A DNA stretch of 64,000 bases from a virus. Both the position numbers and the translations under genes were made by a program. Below are positions 42,705 through 61,760 of the stretch, one piece after another (positions within the stretch are counted from its first letter, which is position 1; the number at the start of each line of letters is the position of its first letter). The stretch is taken from IMG/VR virus record IMGVR_UViG_3300028388_004281, positions 1 to 64,000 of that record, one strand, 5' to 3'. The notes under the pieces were generated by a model. That model was not told where the DNA came from. It ran no database searches and was given only the letters and a program-made list of their open reading frames with translations.

Positions 42705-43165
42705 TAAGAATTCAAGGGGACCTATTCATCGGCATCGACCCTGGCAAGTCTGGAGGCGTGGGTTTCATCTTCGACAGATCCGCCGTGGCCACGCCGATGC
42801 CAACCACGGAGCGGGATATATACGGACTACTTGCCAACATGCAGTCCAGCCACGCGCCCAGGGCCATTATTGAGAAGGTCCATTCCATGCCGAAGCAAGG
42901 TGTAGTCAGCTCGTTCACGTTCGGCCGGAACTATGGGTTTCTGCGCGGATGCCTGGTGGCGTTGAATATCTCGTTCAGAGAAGTGCCGCCGCAGGCATGG
43001 CAGCGGTATCTGGAGATACCGAAGCGCAAGAAAGACGAGACGCAGCCGCAGTTCAAGAGGCGGCTCGTGGTAGTAGCTCAACAAATGTTTCCGCACTTGA
43101 AGTTGACTCAGAAGACGGCGGACGCAGTATTGATAGCAGAGTACTGTAGGAGATGCGGCGGATGA
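42701..43165 (+). CDS. RuvC-like Holliday junction resolvase
   Basis: A 154-residue RNase H-fold nuclease from GTG. Catalytic acidic positions are visible: Asp in FIGIDPGKSGGVGF (about 11), Glu in RAIIEKVHSM (about 66), and Asp in KTADAVLIAEYC (about 144). PQAWQRYLEIPKRKKDETQ is the usual middle segment. Resolves branched DNA before packaging. Confidence 0.75.
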   Translation: MIRIQGDLFIGIDPGKSGGVGFIFDRSAVATPMPTTERDIYGLLANMQSSHAPRAIIEKVHSMPKQGVVSSFTFGRNYGFLRGCLVALNISFREVPPQAWQRYLEIPKRKKDETQPQFKRRLVVVAQQMFPHLKLTQKTADAVLIAEYCRRCGG

Positions 43166-43692
43166 GGTACAAAGACCACAGAGAGCAGTGGACCAAGTGT
43201 CGAAAGTGTAATTTATGGAAGACTAGAACCTCCGTAGTACTGGCCCGTGGCAAGCTACCGTGTGACGTGTTGTTCGTAGGGGAGGCGCCTGGAGCCAGCG
43301 AGGACGTGCTGGGTAGACCATTCGTCGGTCCGGCCGGCAAGCTGCTGGACCGTGTCATACAACAGTCGTTGCCTGAGCAGGTAAGATACTGCATCACGAA
43401 CCTCGTGGCGTGCATACCGGTAGATGACGATGGGCAGAAGACCATCGAGCCACCGGACTACGCCATACGTGCCTGCAACCTACGGCTGCTGGAAATAGTA
43501 GACATGGCGCATGCTAAACTACTGGTGGCGGTAGGCAAGTGCGCCGCGAAGCACCTGAGAGGTGTGAATGGGCCGCTAGTGGAGGTCATACACCCTGCTG
43601 CAATACTGCGAATGGATGCCAGCCAGCAAGGTCTGGCCTACCAGCGTACACTGGTAGCATTGGACGACGCCGTGGAGGAGTACCTGTCATGA
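43153..43692 (+). CDS. Uracil-DNA glycosylase, family 4-like
   Basis: A 179-residue protein overlapping the resolvase gene. The iron-sulphur family signature is present: CRKCNL near 16-21, VLFVGEAPGASEDVLGRPFVGPAGKLLD (motif A, with the catalytic-region GEAPG), YCITNLVACIP, and VIHPAAILR as the C-terminal motif with His. Removes uracil (or a modified base) from DNA. Coupled to the DenV gene. Confidence 0.8.
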   Translation: MRRMRYKDHREQWTKCRKCNLWKTRTSVVLARGKLPCDVLFVGEAPGASEDVLGRPFVGPAGKLLDRVIQQSLPEQVRYCITNLVACIPVDDDGQKTIEPPDYAIRACNLRLLEIVDMAHAKLLVAVGKCAAKHLRGVNGPLVEVIHPAAILRMDASQQGLAYQRTLVALDDAVEEYLS

Positions 43693-46839: not shown

Positions 46840-47040
46840 ATGCTAGTACTGTCTAGGAAGAGGAACGAGGAGCTGGTCATAGACGGCAATATCAGGTTGA
46901 TTGTCGTAGAGATTCGAGGGGATCGCGTGCGACTGGGTATTGATGCGCCTAAGGACGTGATTGTTATGCGGAAGGAGGTGTTGCAGGCTATACAGAGAAG
47001 TGTAGACGTCGGAGGTACTGTTGATGATAGCGTTCAATAG
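46840..47040 (+). CDS. csrA: Carbon storage regulator CsrA
   Basis: A 66-residue protein whose first 50 residues are a complete CsrA: MLVLSRKRNEELVIDG, IRLIVVEIRGDRVRLGIDAP and VIVMRKEV. Arg44-equivalent and the Leu4/Arg6 RNA-binding residues are retained. CsrA dimers bind GGA in hairpin loops near ribosome sites and block or promote translation. It starts one base after the ATPase stop with GGGAGCATAGG. The C-terminal 16 residues are an acidic extension. A phage copy could redirect host metabolism or time phage mRNAs. Confidence 0.9.
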   Translation: MLVLSRKRNEELVIDGNIRLIVVEIRGDRVRLGIDAPKDVIVMRKEVLQAIQRSVDVGGTVDDSVQ

Positions 47041-51423: not shown

Positions 51424-51513
51424 TTCTTCGCTCCTGATTGAAGGTTGTCGTTTCCCCGGGAACATACCCGTGGTATTAGTAATAGTACACTACCGACCAG
51501 GATTGTAAACCCC
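51424..51513. promoter_or_regulatory. Divergent promoter region
   Basis: Ninety bases between the H1-like gene and the fusion gene. TATTAGTAATAGTACAC resembles the early control region; TAATAGTACA matches 42313-42322 exactly. No clear -35 box. Probably drives both directions. Confidence 0.35.
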
Positions 51514-52434
51514 ATGCAGATGAAATCTAGGAGAAAATTCCTACCCCCTGTCCTCCTGGGTCTGGATGGAGGGGATCGGGAGGCGGATCCGCTCGACCCG
51601 GAGTACTACTCGGGGGCACGCCTGAGGCTCCTGAGCGGCCTGGACCGGGATAGGTACTTGGAGTCGTTCGGTAGGGATAACCTGCACCGTAGGCCGTCTC
51701 CGGGGTCCAGGGACCGATCCGCATGGGACCGGATATCGGGGAGGCTGGAAGGCAGAAGAGTCGTCGCCCTCGGGAGGCGTGCCGCCAGGGCGACCGGGGC
51801 CTCCGATATCTGGTTCCGGTGGACCGTAGCAGGAGGGATCGTGGTGTCCTCGATGCCGCATCCGAGCGGACTCAACCGGTGGTGGAACGACCCGAGGAAC
51901 ATGGATACGGCAGGAAGGTTCGTACGGACGTTGCTGGCACCATGCATCCACGTGGAGGGGCCAGACGGGTCCGGTAAGTCGACCTTGGTACCGAGGCTGG
52001 CCAATAGACTGAACCTCAGGGGGGTACAGACGCAGGGCCCTCCGAGGTCGTGGAGTGAATGCCTAGGAAGAGTGGAACGCCGGATCATTCCTGGGGTCGT
52101 ATGCGATAGATCGTCCGGACTGGTCAGCGAGCTGGTCTACGGTCCGGTCCTTCGTGGGGAAACGCTCGGTAAGGAGGAGTGGATATGGGATCTCGTGAAG
52201 GCCGTAAGAGGGTCGGTTGTATTCGTGTACTGCCGGCCTCCAATCGATTCCATGCAGATGGACTTCCGTCCAGATGAGGACCCGGTTCATGTCGGCGGAG
52301 TAGTAGCCCGCTATGGCAGGATAGTCGACAGGTACGACGAAGTGATGGACAGGATCGAGGCTATCGGAGGAACGGTGGTAAGATATGACAGAACGGTCAT
52401 GGGATTCGAGGAGCTGATCGAATGTGTGGAGTAG
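51514..52434 (+). CDS. UDG-superfamily domain fused to thymidylate-kinase-like domain
   Basis: A 306-residue protein. Residues 25-140 have features of a divergent uracil-glycosylase fold: GRRVVALGRRAA as an internal strand-helix, and MPHPSGLNRWWNDPRN (about 115-130), the HPSG-N-W C-terminal active-site segment. The N-terminal GEAPG motif is not evident. Residues 143-305 are a P-loop nucleoside monophosphate kinase: HVEGPDGSGKSTL (Walker A, about 149), CDRSSGLVSELVYGP (DR(S/Y) motif), VYCRPP. The fusion suggests base recognition coupled to nucleotide or base phosphorylation. Confidence 0.6.
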   Translation: MQMKSRRKFLPPVLLGLDGGDREADPLDPEYYSGARLRLLSGLDRDRYLESFGRDNLHRRPSPGSRDRSAWDRISGRLEGRRVVALGRRAARATGASDIWFRWTVAGGIVVSSMPHPSGLNRWWNDPRNMDTAGRFVRTLLAPCIHVEGPDGSGKSTLVPRLANRLNLRGVQTQGPPRSWSECLGRVERRIIPGVVCDRSSGLVSELVYGPVLRGETLGKEEWIWDLVKAVRGSVVFVYCRPPIDSMQMDFRPDEDPVHVGGVVARYGRIVDRYDEVMDRIEAIGGTVVRYDRTVMGFEELIECVE

Positions 52435-53783
52435 TGGCGGTAGCCGGTCCGAACGCAGCGGGGATGGTCGATAGGCTGGAAGGCCCTACGGCAATGGATC
52501 ATAGGGGGGTGAGATCCGGTATGAGGTATGGATCGAACTGGGCCATGAGGCACGTAAGACTGCCGATAGTCGGGGTCGGCGAGGAGCATGACCAACCTAT
52601 GGCAAGGTCCGGATGGATCATAGGGTTCGTAGGGGAGCTAATGAACTTCCGTGAGTTACATGGGACGAGGTACGAGTGCGATGCCGAGCTTGCGGCGGAC
52701 GTATGGATAGATAACGGAATGGCAGGGTTCCGTCTATATGACGGATTCTGGCACCTGGTAGCCATCGAGGAGCGTACCGGAGACGTATACGTCGTAGCCG
52801 ACTACCTGGCCCAGAAGCCAGTCTACGTGAGGATAGGGGATGACTACTCGGCCGTAGCATCGGAGCCCGATACGCTGGCGGCGTTGTCCCCTACCATACC
52901 GGACCGGATCTACCTATCGGCCGTAGTGAAGTGGGGGTACTGCCCGGAGACGAGAAGGACTCCGTACGTCGGGATATCGAGAGTGCTACCCGGCGAGGCC
53001 TGGCATATTCCGTACTACGGAAGGCCGGAGTCGACGGTCGTCGATCCGGTTGCTCCGATTCTCGGGGCGTCCCCTAGGGATCTCAGGCTGGCCGTAATAA
53101 GATCGGTCACCAGAAGAATCCAGTCATCGGACGTACCGATCGGGTGCCTGGTAAGCGGCGGGGTAGATAGCTCGGTCGTGTATTCCCTCGCCGGGAGGAA
53201 CTCGGACGTCCGGGGGTACCATATACCGAACGGGGAGGACGAATACGCCCAGGAGGTGGCTCCGGACGCCGTAAGGGTGGATCCGAGCCTGGTCCCCCTC
53301 CACGAGGCGGCGGATTGGATGCAGGAGCCGATCGATCTAGGGTCACTGGTTCCGCAGGCGTGCATGTCGGCGTCGGTAAGGGCCGTGGGAGGGGAGGTGG
53401 TGTGTCTGACCGGGGACGGAGCCGACGAGCTGTTCGGCGGGTACGGAAGGGCAGGGAGGTACGACAGCCAGGCCAGTGACGTCTGGCAGGAGCTTGTGGC
53501 ATGGCATCTTCCGAGGCTGGACAGGATCATGATGCGGAACCTGATCGAGGTACGGAGTCCGTTCCTGGGGAGGGAGGTAGTCAGGATCGCTCTCGGGATT
53601 CCCTGGAGGGAGAGGACCTCGAAGGGGTTCCTGAAGGAGGCGTTCCGTGGGCTAGTGTCGGATAGGATAGTGGATAGACCGAAGGTTCCATTGAAGACCG
53701 GCGATGTAGAGTCGGATCGGGAAGGCAGAAGCCTGGACCTGGTAAGTCGTTTCATTAAGAAGGAGTGGGGGATACCCGAATGA
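52422..53783 (+). CDS. Asparagine synthase-like glutamine amidotransferase
   Basis: A 453-residue AsnB-type enzyme starting at ATG with Cys2 exposed (MCGVVAV), as required for the class II glutaminase nucleophile. N-terminal domain: MDHRGVRSG and IGFVGELMNF. Synthase domain: IGCLVSGGVDSSVVYSLAG (PP-loop, about 244), VCLTGDGADELFGGYGR, IEVRSPFLGREVV. It should activate a carboxylate with ATP and amidate it with ammonia from glutamine. In this operon a nucleotide or DNA-linked carboxylate is a plausible target. It overlaps the kinase fusion and the methyltransferase gene. Confidence 0.8.
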   Translation: MCGVVAVAGPNAAGMVDRLEGPTAMDHRGVRSGMRYGSNWAMRHVRLPIVGVGEEHDQPMARSGWIIGFVGELMNFRELHGTRYECDAELAADVWIDNGMAGFRLYDGFWHLVAIEERTGDVYVVADYLAQKPVYVRIGDDYSAVASEPDTLAALSPTIPDRIYLSAVVKWGYCPETRRTPYVGISRVLPGEAWHIPYYGRPESTVVDPVAPILGASPRDLRLAVIRSVTRRIQSSDVPIGCLVSGGVDSSVVYSLAGRNSDVRGYHIPNGEDEYAQEVAPDAVRVDPSLVPLHEAADWMQEPIDLGSLVPQACMSASVRAVGGEVVCLTGDGADELFGGYGRAGRYDSQASDVWQELVAWHLPRLDRIMMRNLIEVRSPFLGREVVRIALGIPWRERTSKGFLKEAFRGLVSDRIVDRPKVPLKTGDVESDREGRSLDLVSRFIKKEWGIPE

Positions 53784-56071
53784 AGGCCAGACCTGGAGTG
53801 CTTGGAATTACCAGCGGCATCGGATCGATGCTGGTAGGTGCAAGGCAGGCCCGTTTCAAGGTAGCGGGGAATATCGAGTGGAGAGGGTACTACCATACAG
53901 GAACGTTCGAGAGGAACTTCGACGGAGCGTTTATGACGAAGCGGATCGAGGACCTCCCGGGTAGTACCCTGGATTCCCTTCGGGGGATCGATCTGGTGAT
54001 GGGTCATCCCGAGTGCGGGGCCTGGTCCCAGATGCAAGGATGCAATAATTTCAGGGAGCAGGCCACGAGGATAGTGAACCCGAGGAATCCATGCGACATA
54101 CCCTTGTTCGTGAGTATGGTATCCAAAGTCAGACCGAGGTTCTTCGCGATGGACGACCTACCGAAGTCGCTCGGGGCATACACGATGGAGGACTACGCGA
54201 AGGCGCTTCCCGACTACGACCTCTTTCCAGAGTGGGTAAGCAACTACCACTACGGGAATATCCAGAGACGGAGGGAAAGAATGTTCATGATCGGCTCGCT
54301 CAGGGGTGAGAGATGGGTATTCATCCCTGGGGAGGAGGACCATGACCTGACATTGTCATCGGTGCTGGTAGACCTTCCGGTGTGGCCGGAGGCCGGAGCG
54401 ATACCGAACCACGATCCGCATAACGAGACCGAGGAATGCGGGCGCGGACTGCATATGAACTATCCGTGGCATAGGCCGACGTGGGGCGAGTTCAGGGAAT
54501 GGTTCGAGAGGGTGGATGAAGGCCAGTCGTTCCGGTACTACTCGCCGCATGCTCCCGAGGGGGAGACGAAGGTGAAGCCCGGATGGTATAAGCAGTACTG
54601 GAACGGAACATGCGCCGTTCTGGACGGAGGATCGGGCCATGTCCATCCGCTTCGGAACCTGCCGTTCACCGTAAGGGAGAGGGCCAGAATCCAGGGATTC
54701 CCGGACTGGTTCCTGTTCCATGGTACCAGACTGAACGATAGTGGTGAATGGATCCACGAGAGGAATATCGATATCATTAAGCAGACCGGCAAGGCCATGC
54801 CGATACAGTTCAATCGGTACCTGGCAAGGCAGATCATGGCGCATATCAAAGGTCGGCAGTTCAGGTCGTCGGGTAGACGACTAATTAAGCCGCATCCTAT
54901 GGTAACGGAGGCGAAGGAGTGGTACTGCTCGAACGTCGGGTATTCCGACCAGGAGGCGGCATGCAAGGTATGCTGGATCGGCAGAGAATGCGGAATCCGG
55001 GACGGTCATATGGTCCAGGTCGGTACCCCGAAGGCAGAACCACCGAAGGAGGAGGTACCGAAGGCCGGTACGTTCAGGAAGTCCGGTCGGAAACGGAAGG
55101 CCCGGTCGGTGAAGGTGGAGCCGGCGGAGATACGGAGAACTCCGATGGAGGTGATCAATGTCGAAAGGTCCGAGGATCCAAACGGAACTCCGGTGGTGGA
55201 CGAGGTCCATATCCGTGACGGGGTAGTTCCGGATGACTACCATTGCGACTGCAAGTACTGTACCCGATCGATCGGCGAGCTGAGGGCTCCGGACGGGTCC
55301 TACTACTCCAGGAACGAAAGGAGGAGGTACTACGGAAGCATGGAGAAGGGCGGAAGTGGCCATGTAGCGAAGACCCCGTTGCACATAGCCCGGTGGGCGA
55401 TCCAGAGGTACACGAGGCCTGGAGACTGGGTACTGGATCCGACCGCTGGCGCCGGGACTACGCTAGTCGAGGCCCTGATTCAGGACAGGAACACGGTAGG
55501 GGTCGAGTTGCAGTTCAAGAAGATACTGCTGGATAACGTATCACGGTTCGTATCGGACTCGGCTCGGGCCGTGGTAGGGATCGGGGATGCAAGGTGGATC
55601 GACGGGGTACTCGACGACTTGGATTTCAAACTCTCTTTGGTAGTAAACAATCCTCCGTACTCCGGAGACGAGCACTGGACTACGTACAATGTTCCGGAGG
55701 ACTCCCCCGAGAATACATGGTCGACGACCCTCAGTTCGTACGACAGGAAGCTGGCGAACATAGCCTTCCTGAAGGAGAACGATGAGTACTGGAGAACGCT
55801 CGGGTCGATATACAGGAAGTGTACCAGGAGGCTGAAGGTAGGAGGCCGATTCGTTATCGGGGTCAAGGATCAGATGAGAAGTAAGAGGCCTGACATGCTC
55901 CATATGAAGGTCGCGGAGGTTCTCGATAGGATACCGGGCCTGAAGTTCGAGGGCACGGCATTCCTGAAGCACTATCCGAAGACCCTGCATCTTAACTCGT
56001 ACCCGAAGCTGTACGGCGTCGATCCTCCGTACTACCAGACGATAGTCGTTTTCAGAAAGGTAAGGGGATAG
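53780..56071 (+). CDS. Double DNA methyltransferase: C5-cytosine type fused to amino type
   Basis: A 763-residue protein; ATG overlaps the previous stop. Residues 1-360 follow C5-MTase order: GITSGIGSMLVGARQARF (motif I-like), VMGHPECGAWSQM (motif IV, catalytic Cys about 79), RRRERMFMIG (VIII), TVRERARIQGFPDWF (IX), KQTGKAMPIQFNRYLARQI (X). Residues 380-405 hold Cys residues that may bind zinc. Residues 500-763 are an N6/N4 amino-MTase: TPLHIARWAI, WVLDPTAGAGTTLVEAL (about 550-566), VVNNPPYSG (motif IV NPPY). Both active sites look intact. Could methylate two bases for self-protection, or act on a modified cytosine. Confidence 0.8.
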   Translation: MKARPGVLGITSGIGSMLVGARQARFKVAGNIEWRGYYHTGTFERNFDGAFMTKRIEDLPGSTLDSLRGIDLVMGHPECGAWSQMQGCNNFREQATRIVNPRNPCDIPLFVSMVSKVRPRFFAMDDLPKSLGAYTMEDYAKALPDYDLFPEWVSNYHYGNIQRRRERMFMIGSLRGERWVFIPGEEDHDLTLSSVLVDLPVWPEAGAIPNHDPHNETEECGRGLHMNYPWHRPTWGEFREWFERVDEGQSFRYYSPHAPEGETKVKPGWYKQYWNGTCAVLDGGSGHVHPLRNLPFTVRERARIQGFPDWFLFHGTRLNDSGEWIHERNIDIIKQTGKAMPIQFNRYLARQIMAHIKGRQFRSSGRRLIKPHPMVTEAKEWYCSNVGYSDQEAACKVCWIGRECGIRDGHMVQVGTPKAEPPKEEVPKAGTFRKSGRKRKARSVKVEPAEIRRTPMEVINVERSEDPNGTPVVDEVHIRDGVVPDDYHCDCKYCTRSIGELRAPDGSYYSRNERRRYYGSMEKGGSGHVAKTPLHIARWAIQRYTRPGDWVLDPTAGAGTTLVEALIQDRNTVGVELQFKKILLDNVSRFVSDSARAVVGIGDARWIDGVLDDLDFKLSLVVNNPPYSGDEHWTTYNVPEDSPENTWSTTLSSYDRKLANIAFLKENDEYWRTLGSIYRKCTRRLKVGGRFVIGVKDQMRSKRPDMLHMKVAEVLDRIPGLKFEGTAFLKHYPKTLHLNSYPKLYGVDPPYYQTIVVFRKVRG

Positions 56072-56072
56072 T

Positions 56073-56465
56073 ATGGATGTCCATGGGAAGTATTACAATC
56101 CTGGGGGGAAGGAACGAACCGGTAAACGAAGACCGAATCGGAAGGAGGATACATGCCTCTGCTCTGCAATCGAGGAGGACTGCATAGCGCACCTATCGGT
56201 TGCCCTATCGAATGGGGATGGGAAGGTCGCAAGAAGAATCAGTTCAGTTCTGCACCTGTGCTGCTCCTTGATTAAGAATGCCCAGGAGGGAGGGACGAAT
56301 CCGAAGCGACAGAGGGCCCGAAAGTATATTGTGAAGCAGTTCGGGATGATAATGGAATACGCAGCGAAAGGTGGACTGGGGCTATCGGAGATCGGTAGCA
56401 AGTTCGGAAATACCCAGCATATAAGGCACTTTATCGATCAGGAGATTGGGAATGCTGGTAGTTAA
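56073..56465 (+). CDS. Hypothetical protein
   Basis: A 130-residue protein with AAGGTAAGGGGATAGT upstream. Basic N-terminus (ERTGKRRPNRKED), CLCSAIEEDCIAH, a helical core and a C-terminal LGLSEIGSKFGNTQHIRHFI that could be a helix-turn-helix. It lies between the methyltransferase and hydroxymethylase genes and overlaps the latter by 14 bases. No family recognised. Confidence 0.5.
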   Translation: MDVHGKYYNPGGKERTGKRRPNRKEDTCLCSAIEEDCIAHLSVALSNGDGKVARRISSVLHLCCSLIKNAQEGGTNPKRQRARKYIVKQFGMIMEYAAKGGLGLSEIGSKFGNTQHIRHFIDQEIGNAGS

Positions 56466-57297
56466 CGGATCTAGTTTCAGTGATATCTACATGTCACTAG
56501 AGGGGATGATAGTAACTGCGGATCGGGTTGGTAATCCAAGGTGGCAGGGGATGGATGTATCGGGAAGGCCGGGATCCGATCTCCATGAACTAGTGAACAT
56601 TGTATTCGAGGTTCCGTTAGGCGGAATCGAGGACCTCGGCCACTGGAGGAATGACATAGGCCCGAACCTTCCGTGGGCCGATGATCATTTCGACGAGCGT
56701 GTCGGCGGCGAGCCTCTGAACCCCGGAGTGCAGTGGCGTAACTGGCCATGGGGCAGAAGCGCGGATAAGTTCAGGGACAATGATGAACTGTTCAATCACA
56801 CGTACATGGAACGGCTGTGGCCTAGGTACGCGAGGAGAACGCTAGGGGGTAGGCTAGACCTAGCGGAGCACGGGGCCCGTAGAACCACGGATGGGGCCAG
56901 GCCGCGTAGGGGGATAGGGTGGGAGTACGGCGACCTTCAGAGCGTGGTGGATCTCCTCGTGAAGGAGCCTGGAACCCGCCAGGCGTGGATCCCGTTATTC
57001 CATCCCGAGGATACGGGGTACGGAGACGGCGGGAGGAAGCCCTGCACGCTAGGGTACCAGTTCATGGTAAGGAACGGATCGATCGGGATATGGTATCCGC
57101 TGAGGGCCTGCGATCTTACGCACCACTGGAAGGACGACTGCTACCTGGCAGTCAGGCTTCTTCTGTGGGTACTTGGAATGTGCAGGGAGGCCGATCACGG
57201 ATATTGGGACTCGGTAGTCCCTGGAGGCTATGCCATGCATATGACATCTCTTCACGTATTCGAGAACGACTGGAGGGCACTGTGTCGCAGTTCGTAA
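56452..57297 (+). CDS. dCMP hydroxymethylase-like thymidylate synthase homologue
   Basis: A 281-residue protein; GGAG 7 bases before the chosen ATG. RQAWIPLFHPED, KPCTLGYQFMVRNG (nucleophile Cys about 198), YPLRACDLTHHWKDDCYLAV and HMTSLHVFENDW are the thymidylate synthase superfamily series. In thymidylate synthase the RS-x-D-x7-N segment ends in Asn (Asn177 in E. coli). Here the position is Asp (about 229), as in T4 gp42 (RNDY). SLHVF also matches T4 SLHVY. This predicts dCMP as substrate and a 5-hydroxymethyl product using methylene-tetrahydrofolate. Confidence 0.7.
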   Translation: MLVVNGSSFSDIYMSLEGMIVTADRVGNPRWQGMDVSGRPGSDLHELVNIVFEVPLGGIEDLGHWRNDIGPNLPWADDHFDERVGGEPLNPGVQWRNWPWGRSADKFRDNDELFNHTYMERLWPRYARRTLGGRLDLAEHGARRTTDGARPRRGIGWEYGDLQSVVDLLVKEPGTRQAWIPLFHPEDTGYGDGGRKPCTLGYQFMVRNGSIGIWYPLRACDLTHHWKDDCYLAVRLLLWVLGMCREADHGYWDSVVPGGYAMHMTSLHVFENDWRALCRSS

Positions 57298-57683
57298 GCG
57301 TCGGTAGATTCCATCGGAAGTTCGGCCTAAGATCGGCGGACGATTGTCCCGATCCGAGACTAGTCGATGACGGAGTGTTCCTGTTCCGATACCAGTTTCT
57401 GATGGAGGAAATGCAGGAGCTGATCCATTCGCACAGGAACGGAGACGTCGCCGGCGTGGCCGACGCCTTGGTCGATCTGGTCTACGTGGCTTTAGGTACG
57501 GCCCACCTCTACGGAATACCGTTCGACGAGGTATTCGACGAGGTCCAGAGGGCAAATATGTCTAAGGAGAGATCGACCGGAGACGACGACGGTCGGTCGA
57601 AGCGCGGGAGCGGACTCGATGTCGTGAAGCCGGATGGATGGACCCCACCGGATATCGAATCGATCATAGGGAGATATACCTAA
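57282..57683 (+). CDS. MazG-like nucleotide pyrophosphohydrolase
   Basis: A 133-residue protein from GTG with GGAGG upstream, overlapping the hydroxymethylase end. FRYQFLMEEMQELIHSHRNGD has the EExxE metal site, VADALVDLVYVALGTAHLYG the D-x3-D site, and VQRANMSKE the typical end. All-alpha NTP-PPases hydrolyse (d)NTPs to monophosphates; in modifying phages this can remove an unmodified dNTP or supply dCMP for hydroxymethylation. Confidence 0.75.
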   Translation: MSQFVSVGRFHRKFGLRSADDCPDPRLVDDGVFLFRYQFLMEEMQELIHSHRNGDVAGVADALVDLVYVALGTAHLYGIPFDEVFDEVQRANMSKERSTGDDDGRSKRGSGLDVVKPDGWTPPDIESIIGRYT

Positions 57684-58171
57684 TGAACTCGGTAGTCTGG
57701 ATGATAGGTGAGCCTGAAGGCCCCAAGGCGCAACGGATCCGCGAGAGACTGATCAGGTACGTAAGGTTCGCCCGGGACCTGGAGTCATTATCTACATGCA
57801 GACGAAGGTCGGTCGGGTGCGTGATAGCAAGCGACGACCTGACGTCGGTAGCGTCAATAGGATACAACGGCCAGCCTAGAGGCACCCCCAACGACGGATG
57901 CTCGGGGGAGGTCGGATCGTGCGGATGCATCCATGCCGAGGCGAATGCCTTGGTCAAGATACCGGGATGGTACAGCGATACGACGATGTTGGTTACATGC
58001 TCTCCGTGCGCCCACTGCTCGGGACTTATCGTGAACAGCGGAAAGGTATCGGTAGTACTGTACGATAGTACGTATCGGGTATCGGATGGGCTGTATATAC
58101 TAGGCCTGGCCGGAGTGGCGGTATTCAGGACCCCTGAAATTCTAGGGAGCGGGAAAGGCGACGACGTATGA
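57683..58171 (+). CDS. dCMP/cytidine deaminase family enzyme
   Basis: A 162-residue protein; ATG overlaps the MazG stop. CRRRSVGCVIASDD, GYNGQPRGTPND, GCIHAEANALVKIP (zinc His and catalytic Glu) and MLVTCSPCAHCSGLIVNSG (zinc Cys pair) are the ComEB/dCMP deaminase set. Converts dCMP to dUMP, influencing the pool shared with the hydroxymethylase and providing dUMP that the UDG genes guard against. Confidence 0.85.
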   Translation: MNSVVWMIGEPEGPKAQRIRERLIRYVRFARDLESLSTCRRRSVGCVIASDDLTSVASIGYNGQPRGTPNDGCSGEVGSCGCIHAEANALVKIPGWYSDTTMLVTCSPCAHCSGLIVNSGKVSVVLYDSTYRVSDGLYILGLAGVAVFRTPEILGSGKGDDV

Positions 58172-61011: not shown

Positions 61012-61273
61012 GAGCGCGTCCCTGGTGCAGGCCCAGGCCGAGCAGCATCGGCAGATCATGCAGGAGCAGCAGCATCGGTGGACCCACAACTTCGTCATGG
61101 AAACCGCCCGCGACTTGTTCGTCAGCGACTTCAACTGGGACAGGGACGACGGGATCCACAGGGACGAGGCCAGGATCGCCTTGGGCAAGGCCAAGCTGAT
61201 GGCCGAGGAATTCGGGATCATCATCAAGCAGGCTGCTCACGCGAAGGGAGGGGGTGATGACCACGAAGATTGA
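60971..61273 (+). CDS. Helical hypothetical protein
   Basis: A 100-residue protein, Gln/Glu-rich helix ([21 protein letters not shown]), then [19 protein letters not shown] and an [17 protein letters not shown] helix. The C-terminal KGGGDDHED is encoded by the recurrent junction element. Confidence 0.5.
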
Positions 61274-61760
61274 TCTGACGAGCGTGCTGGAAAAGCACGG
61301 CAAATGGCTGCGAAACGAAAAAGACGGTGAACGGGCCGATCTCCGCAGGGCCAATCTCAGCGGGGCTGATCTTAGCTGGGCTGATCTTTGCTGGGCCGAT
61401 CTCCTCGGGGCCAATCTCCTCGGGGCCAATCTCCGCAGGGCCGATCTCAGCTGGGCCGATCTCCGCAGGGTTGATCTCCGCTGGGCCGATCTCAGCAGGG
61501 CCAGACTCAGCTGGCAATCTCATGCACTCCTGTCCGAGATTCTCGTGCGGGCTGCTGGTGATCACGTCGAGCGCCGGATGCTTGCAGGGCTAGTGGCAGT
61601 CAGCGTCGACTGGTGTTGGGACAGGTTCCTGGCAATCGAGCATCCCCAAAAGCAGTGGGCCATAAACGAACTGACGAAGTGGGTGCGGCCTGAGGATGGT
61701 GCACCACAGGTGATCCGTGAAGCCGCCGAAGCGAAGGGAGGGGATGATGAAAGATCCTGA
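61257..61760 (+). CDS. Pentapeptide-repeat protein
   Basis: A 167-residue protein; GGGAGGGG lies 5 bases before the chosen ATG. Residues 26-82 are 11 or so tandem pentapeptides of the A(D/N)Lxx type ([18 protein letters not shown]), forming a right-handed square beta-helix. Some family members (Qnr, MfpA) mimic DNA and bind gyrase; others have unknown roles. The C-terminal half is helical, ending KGGDDERS from the junction element. Confidence 0.7.

Follow-up and report, generated by a model that had tools for sequence, protein, structure and literature searches.

What modified base, if any, do seven consecutive genes in the IMG/VR virus record IMGVR_UViG_3300028388_004281 serve to make? The genes lie in the stretch analysed here (the window, bases 1-64000 of the 68,203-base record) and encode a fusion of a uracil-DNA glycosylase (UDG)-like domain with a kinase, an AsnB-type amide synthetase, a double methyltransferase whose first half is a C5-cytosine-methyltransferase homologue, a 130-aa protein, a thymidylate-synthase-like (TS-like) enzyme, MazG and dCMP deaminase (Table 1). 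They had been predicted, from the sequence alone, to form a cytosine-directed DNA hypermodification module. Our analysis shows that the module is real, conserved and partly explained by the recently described CmoX/CmoY pathway, yet distinct from it. It very probably serves cytosine hypermodification and, as the original prediction had held, goes beyond classical 5-hydroxymethylcytosine (5hmC) synthesis.

To what extent the genes belong together is seen from two scans of IMG/VR. The first, with an alignment of the TS-like protein, gave 80 loci, 79 after one duplicate had been dropped. AsnB is present in seven of them and a C5 homologue in seven, with both in six (p=2e-7); the seventh AsnB locus (L100) is on the same contig as L125, which also has a C5 gene. 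The second scan used an alignment of the C5 family, its query members being drawn from TS-linked loci and the scan itself running on C5 sequence alone, and it recovered 36 clear family loci (L105-L140). Alignments were needed, as single-sequence scans of viral contigs with the window AsnB and C5 domain gave no match. AsnB accompanies the C5 homologue in 29 of the 36 loci (28 distinct after one near-duplicate pair) and a TS-like gene in 32; of the four without one, three come from contigs that are short or cut, and the fourth, L125, has its TS gene elsewhere on the contig. Moreover, in 26/26 loci scored, AsnB and the C5 homologue share a strand and are no more than about 1.6 kb apart; the C5 homologue also has the same orientation as the TS-like gene in 28/28. 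Thus, the neighbourhood search that had been suggested as a check finds the same gene set in many independent viral contigs, which argues against a chance neighbourhood. About 11 related loci encode the N6/N4 methyltransferase domain as a gene of its own and others lack it, and UDG-like genes stand alone in several related modules; the assumption that the UDG-like/kinase fusion and the N6/N4 methyltransferase are integral parts is thus not supported. The core is the TS-like enzyme, the C5 homologue and AsnB, with dCMP deaminase, MazG/dUTPase and kinase. Clustering for an extra conserved module gene returned only an SNF2-type helicase, a dUTPase_2-type pyrophosphatase, DNA polymerases and a few low-frequency genes. 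Finally, among 84,980 prokaryote species genomes scanned, the C5 family occurs on one contig only (L163, from a Myxococcaceae metagenome-assembled genome (MAG)), which shares its length and coordinates with the IMG/VR locus L136; the C5 family therefore looks like a phage family.

Is the module directed at cytosine? The TS-like protein (PHROG_160, 3e-21) has the catalytic Cys of the TS fold (Cys200), Asp231 at the position of E. coli N177 and T4 D179, and Thr201 at that of E. coli H147. The Asp is invariant across TS-like relatives, including 28 module loci. In contigs whose cytosine is modified, TS proteins are marked by Asp at 177 and an altered residue 147 (PMC8670742). By our reading, Glu48 is the probable equivalent of the folate-activating Glu. 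The cytosine-type Asp supports the predicted direction at cytosine. Of the description as dCMP-hydroxymethylase-like, the TS fold, the Cys and the Asp stand, whereas the water-activating Asp145 of the T4 enzyme is not kept, the aligned residue of the window enzyme being, by our reading, Arg197. The best PDB match of the single sequence is the CMP hydroxymethylase MilA; that of the family profile is a phage dCMP hydroxylase (9iqu, E=4e-7, C-terminal half), slightly above TS and MilA. On these residues and matches the enzyme is likely to act in C5 modification of dCMP, and its product would most likely, with reasonable probability, be the hydroxymethyl form, hydroxy or methyl also being possible.

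Known nucleotide-level systems resemble this part of the module. The T4-type cassette (gp42, dCTPase, deoxynucleoside monophosphate (dNMP) kinase, dCMP deaminase) has the same functional set of nucleotide genes, and equivalents of the gp42 Cys, Asp179 and Glu60 are present in the window enzyme; however, the two belong to different TS branches, and no glucosyltransferase is recognised in the module. The MetaGPA cassettes of TS, PRA-PH, dCMP deaminase and 5hmC carbamoyltransferase (PMC8670742) share the three nucleotide-level Pfam domains and the TS Asp177 but differ in the carbamoyltransferase, found in 0 of the 46 related TS records searched. The dCMP hydroxylase AfhB of phage HY126 (PDB 9iqu/9iqc) is flavin-dependent according to its PDB title, whereas the window family, by our reading, keeps the folate-activating Glu equivalent. 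The TS loci also revealed a family of about 270 aa, usually encoded between MazG and TS, which is present in 55 of the 79 loci, none of which has the C5 homologue (p=1e-4). Examples are L003:7165-8004, L004:6637-7446, L005:5627-6415 and members in L029-L099 (e.g. L031:163-966). Its AlphaFold2 (AF2) model (pLDDT 88) is TS-like, with dCMP hydroxylase 9iqu as the best PDB match (E=1.4e-4), and in L068 a C5 gene occupies its slot.

The C5 domain carries the most telling changes. It matches DNA_methylase (Pfam, 5e-16; motifs HPEC, MDDLP, QRRRER and TGKAMP), and its AF2 model (pLDDT 91.5), with M.HaeIII as best PDB fold match (E=1e-16), identifies a C5-methyltransferase fold. We tabulated residues of 33 aligned family members against CmoX and ordinary phage C5 methyltransferases. 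The catalytic Cys and both motif VIII Arg are kept in 33/33 and the ribose-binding Glu in 32/33. The motif VI Glu, in contrast, is Asp in all 33, the adenine-stacking Phe is Thr in 27, the adenine-binding Asp is not conserved, and a basic residue, Lys in 28 and Arg in 4, replaces the motif X Asn in all 32 members that have the position. Numbered from the ATG at 53780, the catalytic Cys of the window enzyme is Cys79 and its motif X Lys is Lys338. In place of the canonical 5mC signature (ENV in motif VI, GN in motif X), the AsnB-linked family has Asp-Asp/Asn-Leu and Gly-Lys. Three parts of the active site would thus differ: the acid that faces the base (Glu to Asp), the cofactor side (Phe to Thr, with loss of the Asp) and the pocket for the transferred group (Asn to Lys). 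Every AsnB-linked member has Lys at motif X, and six members without AsnB have Arg; the position corresponds to CmoX Arg350 and to the engineered M.MpeI N374K site. Ordinary phage C5 methyltransferases recovered in the same scan have the Asn in 17 of 19 cases and no AsnB nearby. Both Lys exceptions are in L142, L143 holds another Lys enzyme, and all of these adjoin a TS-like gene with the cytosine-type Asp. L068, a more distant TS-linked homologue, has the motif X Asn and the canonical Glu-Asn. Set against TS linkage, Lys/Arg and Asn enzymes divide 34:0 and 2:18.

The Lys enzymes of these two loci (L142:7923-9206, L142:9382-10347 and L143:4510-5541) stand beside TS-like genes without AsnB, and a glycosyltransferase-like gene lies near the C5 homologue in L143 and possibly in L142. 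In L139 (8816-10978) an intein-like insert with a DUF559-type nuclease domain splits the C5 homologue at the catalytic Cys.

The AsnB-type protein (Asn_synthase 4e-34, GATase_6 2e-11) contains Cys2, TGDGADE and RPK, as well as the SGGxDSS motif (SGGVDSS) and catalytic Lys (K421) of an ATP-pyrophosphatase synthetase domain. Such a protein beside a C5 homologue recalls a pathway published in December 2025 (PMC12783734). In Synechococcus phage S-B43, CmoA makes carboxy-S-adenosylmethionine (Cx-SAM), which the C5 homologue CmoX uses to form 5-carboxymethylcytosine (5cxmC), with its Arg350, which corresponds to HhaI Asn304, binding the carboxylate; the AsnB-like CmoY then ligates glycine to give the 5cxmC-glycine amide. 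The engineered M.MpeI N374K carries out carboxymethyl transfer with Lys at the Arg350 position, while the members of a second ligase cluster, which have a glutaminase domain, are so far only predicted to use ammonia (PMC12783734). The statement that the module matches no described pathway is therefore correct strictly speaking, but its logic of an AsnB-type ligase adjoining a C5 homologue with a basic residue at HhaI N304 is that of CmoX/CmoY.

The two systems nevertheless differ. The window family has HPEC/HPKC instead of SPPC, Lys instead of Arg (its few Arg members also lack SPPC) and Asp instead of Glu in motif VI; it is linked to a TS with Asp177, and its AsnB has a glutaminase domain. 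A phage-encoded CmoA was considered for the window's record and rejected, as none was found there; other small methyltransferases as a hidden CmoA were likewise set aside, PF13649 matches being sporadic (6 of 16 family records). Since SPPC is absent, Lys replaces Arg and no CmoA was found, we do not place the window family in CmoX/CmoY: judged by its residues and linked genes it is not CmoX and would work like CmoX/CmoY at most in part. A related arrangement exists in Streptomyces phage TurkishDelight, where gp123-gp125 are a C5 methyltransferase (Arg), an AsnB with glutaminase domain and CmoA in a row, and in IMG/VR L008 and L011-L013. The AsnB of this type shows about 31% aligned identity to that of the window, and both have a glutaminase domain and lie beside a C5 homologue; however, the TurkishDelight type has the CmoX-type Arg, CmoA, an intact AsnB Asn74 and no TS match.

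On balance we favour a two-stage hypermodification, in which C5 modification of dCMP would be followed by installation of a carboxylate-bearing group on DNA and by amidation. In the first stage, on free nucleotides, MazG would remove dCTP/dUTP, the TS-like enzyme would add a one-carbon group, most likely hydroxymethyl, to C5 of dCMP, the kinase would phosphorylate the product, and dCMP deaminase would feed dUMP. In the second, on polymerised DNA, the C5-derived enzyme would install the carboxylate-bearing group at or on the 5-substituent, the motif X Lys would hold the carboxylate of the incoming group, and the AsnB-type enzyme would adenylate it and convert it to the amide. The genes, their conserved linkage, the residue changes and the lack of a detectable CmoA are observed, whereas the two chemical steps and the sequence in which they occur, what the group is and its use in escaping restriction are inferred. 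An action of AsnB on a base carboxylate seems slightly favoured, the chances that the TS product is the substrate of the C5 homologue are evenly balanced, and Cx-SAM is an unlikely donor. Ordinary C5 methyltransferases act on 5hmC, by formaldehyde loss and subsequent methylation or by thiol coupling (PMC11347137; PMC7176277), which makes a C5 enzyme on pre-modified cytosine chemically plausible; and because the C5 homologue is tied to TS and plain transfer is impossible on a C5-substituted base, a pre-modified substrate is favoured. More specifically, the C5-derived enzyme may, as a tentative suggestion, couple the carboxylate-bearing group to TS-made 5-hydroxymethyl- or 5-hydroxycytosine in DNA, with AsnB amidating it. 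Examples of such a group would be O-carboxymethyl or an amino acid attached via the exocyclic methylene, in which case the base would be a carboxymethylaminomethyl-type cytosine. We found no described precedent for such a coupled and amidated base, and its formation would be a new reaction for the C5-methyltransferase fold, if a rather doubtful one.

Several observations weigh against the two-stage reading. If stage 1 substituted all C5 positions, it would block simple C5 transfer. Lys or Arg is also found in TS-linked C5 enzymes without AsnB, so the residue may have another purpose. The glutaminase oxyanion Asn (Asn74) is Val in the window AsnB and in 23 of 26 relatives, all 26 of which keep Cys2, so glutamine-derived ammonia is not certain. 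The CmoX cofactor residues F25 and D69 are not kept, which makes use of SAM or Cx-SAM uncertain. CmoA was not found in the window's own record or in 29 related ones (11 of them longer than 60 kb), although the records may be incomplete; the same search found it in 3/3 CmoX(Arg)/AsnB records; nor was it found in the MAG holding L163, a putative host whose binning is not verified. A source of the carboxymethyl group is therefore missing. Finally, the C5-family members are related, and the residue and linkage statistics are not phylogenetically independent.

The same observations bear on an improbable alternative, a CmoX/CmoY-type system without its own CmoA, in which the C5 domain uses host Cx-SAM on unmodified cytosine at chosen sites, AsnB makes 5-carbamoylmethylcytosine and the TS-like enzyme belongs to ordinary or partial nucleotide metabolism. 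The Lys at the Cx-SAM carboxylate position and the glutaminase domain of AsnB fit this, and E. coli CmoA is able to supply SpCmoX in vivo (PMC12783734). The absence of CmoA from the related records and the sole putative host MAG, and the loss of SPPC, F25 and D69, do not; moreover, the TS with Asp177 is consistently present here, whereas CmoA-linked phages gave no TS match (in a search without positive control). Still less probable is that the C5 homologue works as an oxygen alkyl- or methyltransferase, or as some other modifier, whose target is the hydroxyl of TS-made 5-hydroxymethyl- or 5-hydroxycytosine, with Lys/Arg as acid/base and AsnB acting elsewhere or finishing the group. This would account for the way in which Lys/Arg tracks TS linkage, including the AsnB-free Arg loci and the separate C5 lineages of L142 and L143, and the TS family profile lies equally near dCMP hydroxylase 9iqu and TS or MilA. 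However, O-alkylation does not need the invariant Cys nucleophile, the AsnB linkage goes unexplained, and the Lys/Arg-TS association is largely within one family. An unrelated neighbourhood of nucleotide metabolism, an ordinary protective double methyltransferase and a metabolic asparagine synthetase is quite unlikely, since although every domain has common metabolic or restriction-protective relatives, the genes strictly co-occur and are co-oriented across many contigs and the non-canonical active-site residues are fixed throughout the C5 family.

The layout agrees with the prediction in that all seven open reading frames (ORFs) are on the + strand and overlap or sit 1 base apart. The module does not start at 51424, since a stop codon at 51439-51441 precedes the first usable start; ATG 51514 is the more plausible opening of the first gene, the other being a TTG (Table 1). 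MazG starts at a GTG with GGAGG upstream and not at the first GTG of its ORF (56919), and the operon extends into a primase gene at 58168 via an ATGA overlap.

Table 1. Features of the gene block, in window coordinates.
Feature	Coordinates	Strand	Remarks
UDG-like domain + dNMP (thymidylate-type) kinase fusion	51514..52434	+	alternative start TTG 51445
AsnB-type amide synthetase, N-terminal class-II glutamine amidotransferase domain	52422..53783	+	
C5-cytosine-methyltransferase-derived transferase domain	53765..54970	+	alternative ATG start 53780
N6/N4 amino-methyltransferase domain, fused to C5 domain in window	55205..56071	+	domain start approximate
130-aa protein without Pfam or PHROG match	56073..56465	+	
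TS-like dCMP-modifying enzyme, predicted	56446..57297	+	PHROG_160
MazG/PRA-PH-type nucleotide pyrophosphohydrolase	57282..57683	+	PRA-PH, Shine-Dalgarno GGAGG
dCMP deaminase	57638..58171	+	start possibly ATG 57683

The remaining domains are assigned as follows. The UDG fold of the first gene matches PHROG_12275 (3e-14), its Pfam match (E=7e-4) falling below the cut-off; the kinase part is a dNMP-kinase P-loop protein (thymidylate kinase PHROG, 5e-10) with the motif PHPSGLNRWWND. The same phage encodes a second, clear UDG-superfamily protein at 43153-43692 (Pfam E=1e-19), so the module domain is probably not a general uracil glycosylase, and we rejected it as the phage's sole one. Read by eye, the DNA polymerase A proteins at L142:12685-15240 and L143:7992-10415 begin with a stretch that resembles UDG and has the motif GEAPGxxE. 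The second half of the double methyltransferase matches N6_N4_Mtase (2.5e-14; motifs DPTAGAGTT and NPPYSG), MazG matches PRA-PH (Pfam, 5e-17) and is a probable dCTP/dUTP pyrophosphatase, and the deaminase matches dCMP_cyt_deam_1 (5e-17) and PHROG_174 (7e-33). The 130-aa ORF is not conserved among related modules. Elsewhere in the window, a phage-encoded CsrA (46840-47040, Pfam E=2.5e-21) lies downstream of an AAA_24 (Sak4-like) gene and upstream of replication genes, and a pentapeptide-repeat protein (61254-61760, Pfam E=8e-29) lies among small ORFs downstream of the module.

The window family falls outside the SPPC/Arg350 filter of the published search (PMC12783734) and would therefore be overlooked when carboxylate-type DNA modification is surveyed at present; our analysis widens the candidate set beyond that filter. 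If the two-stage reading is true, phages would reach carboxylate handles on cytosine by a second route, and the logics of the 5-hydroxymethyl handle and the carboxyl handle, both known, would be joined in one module, which would provide a compact set of enzymes for writing bases that bear an amide.

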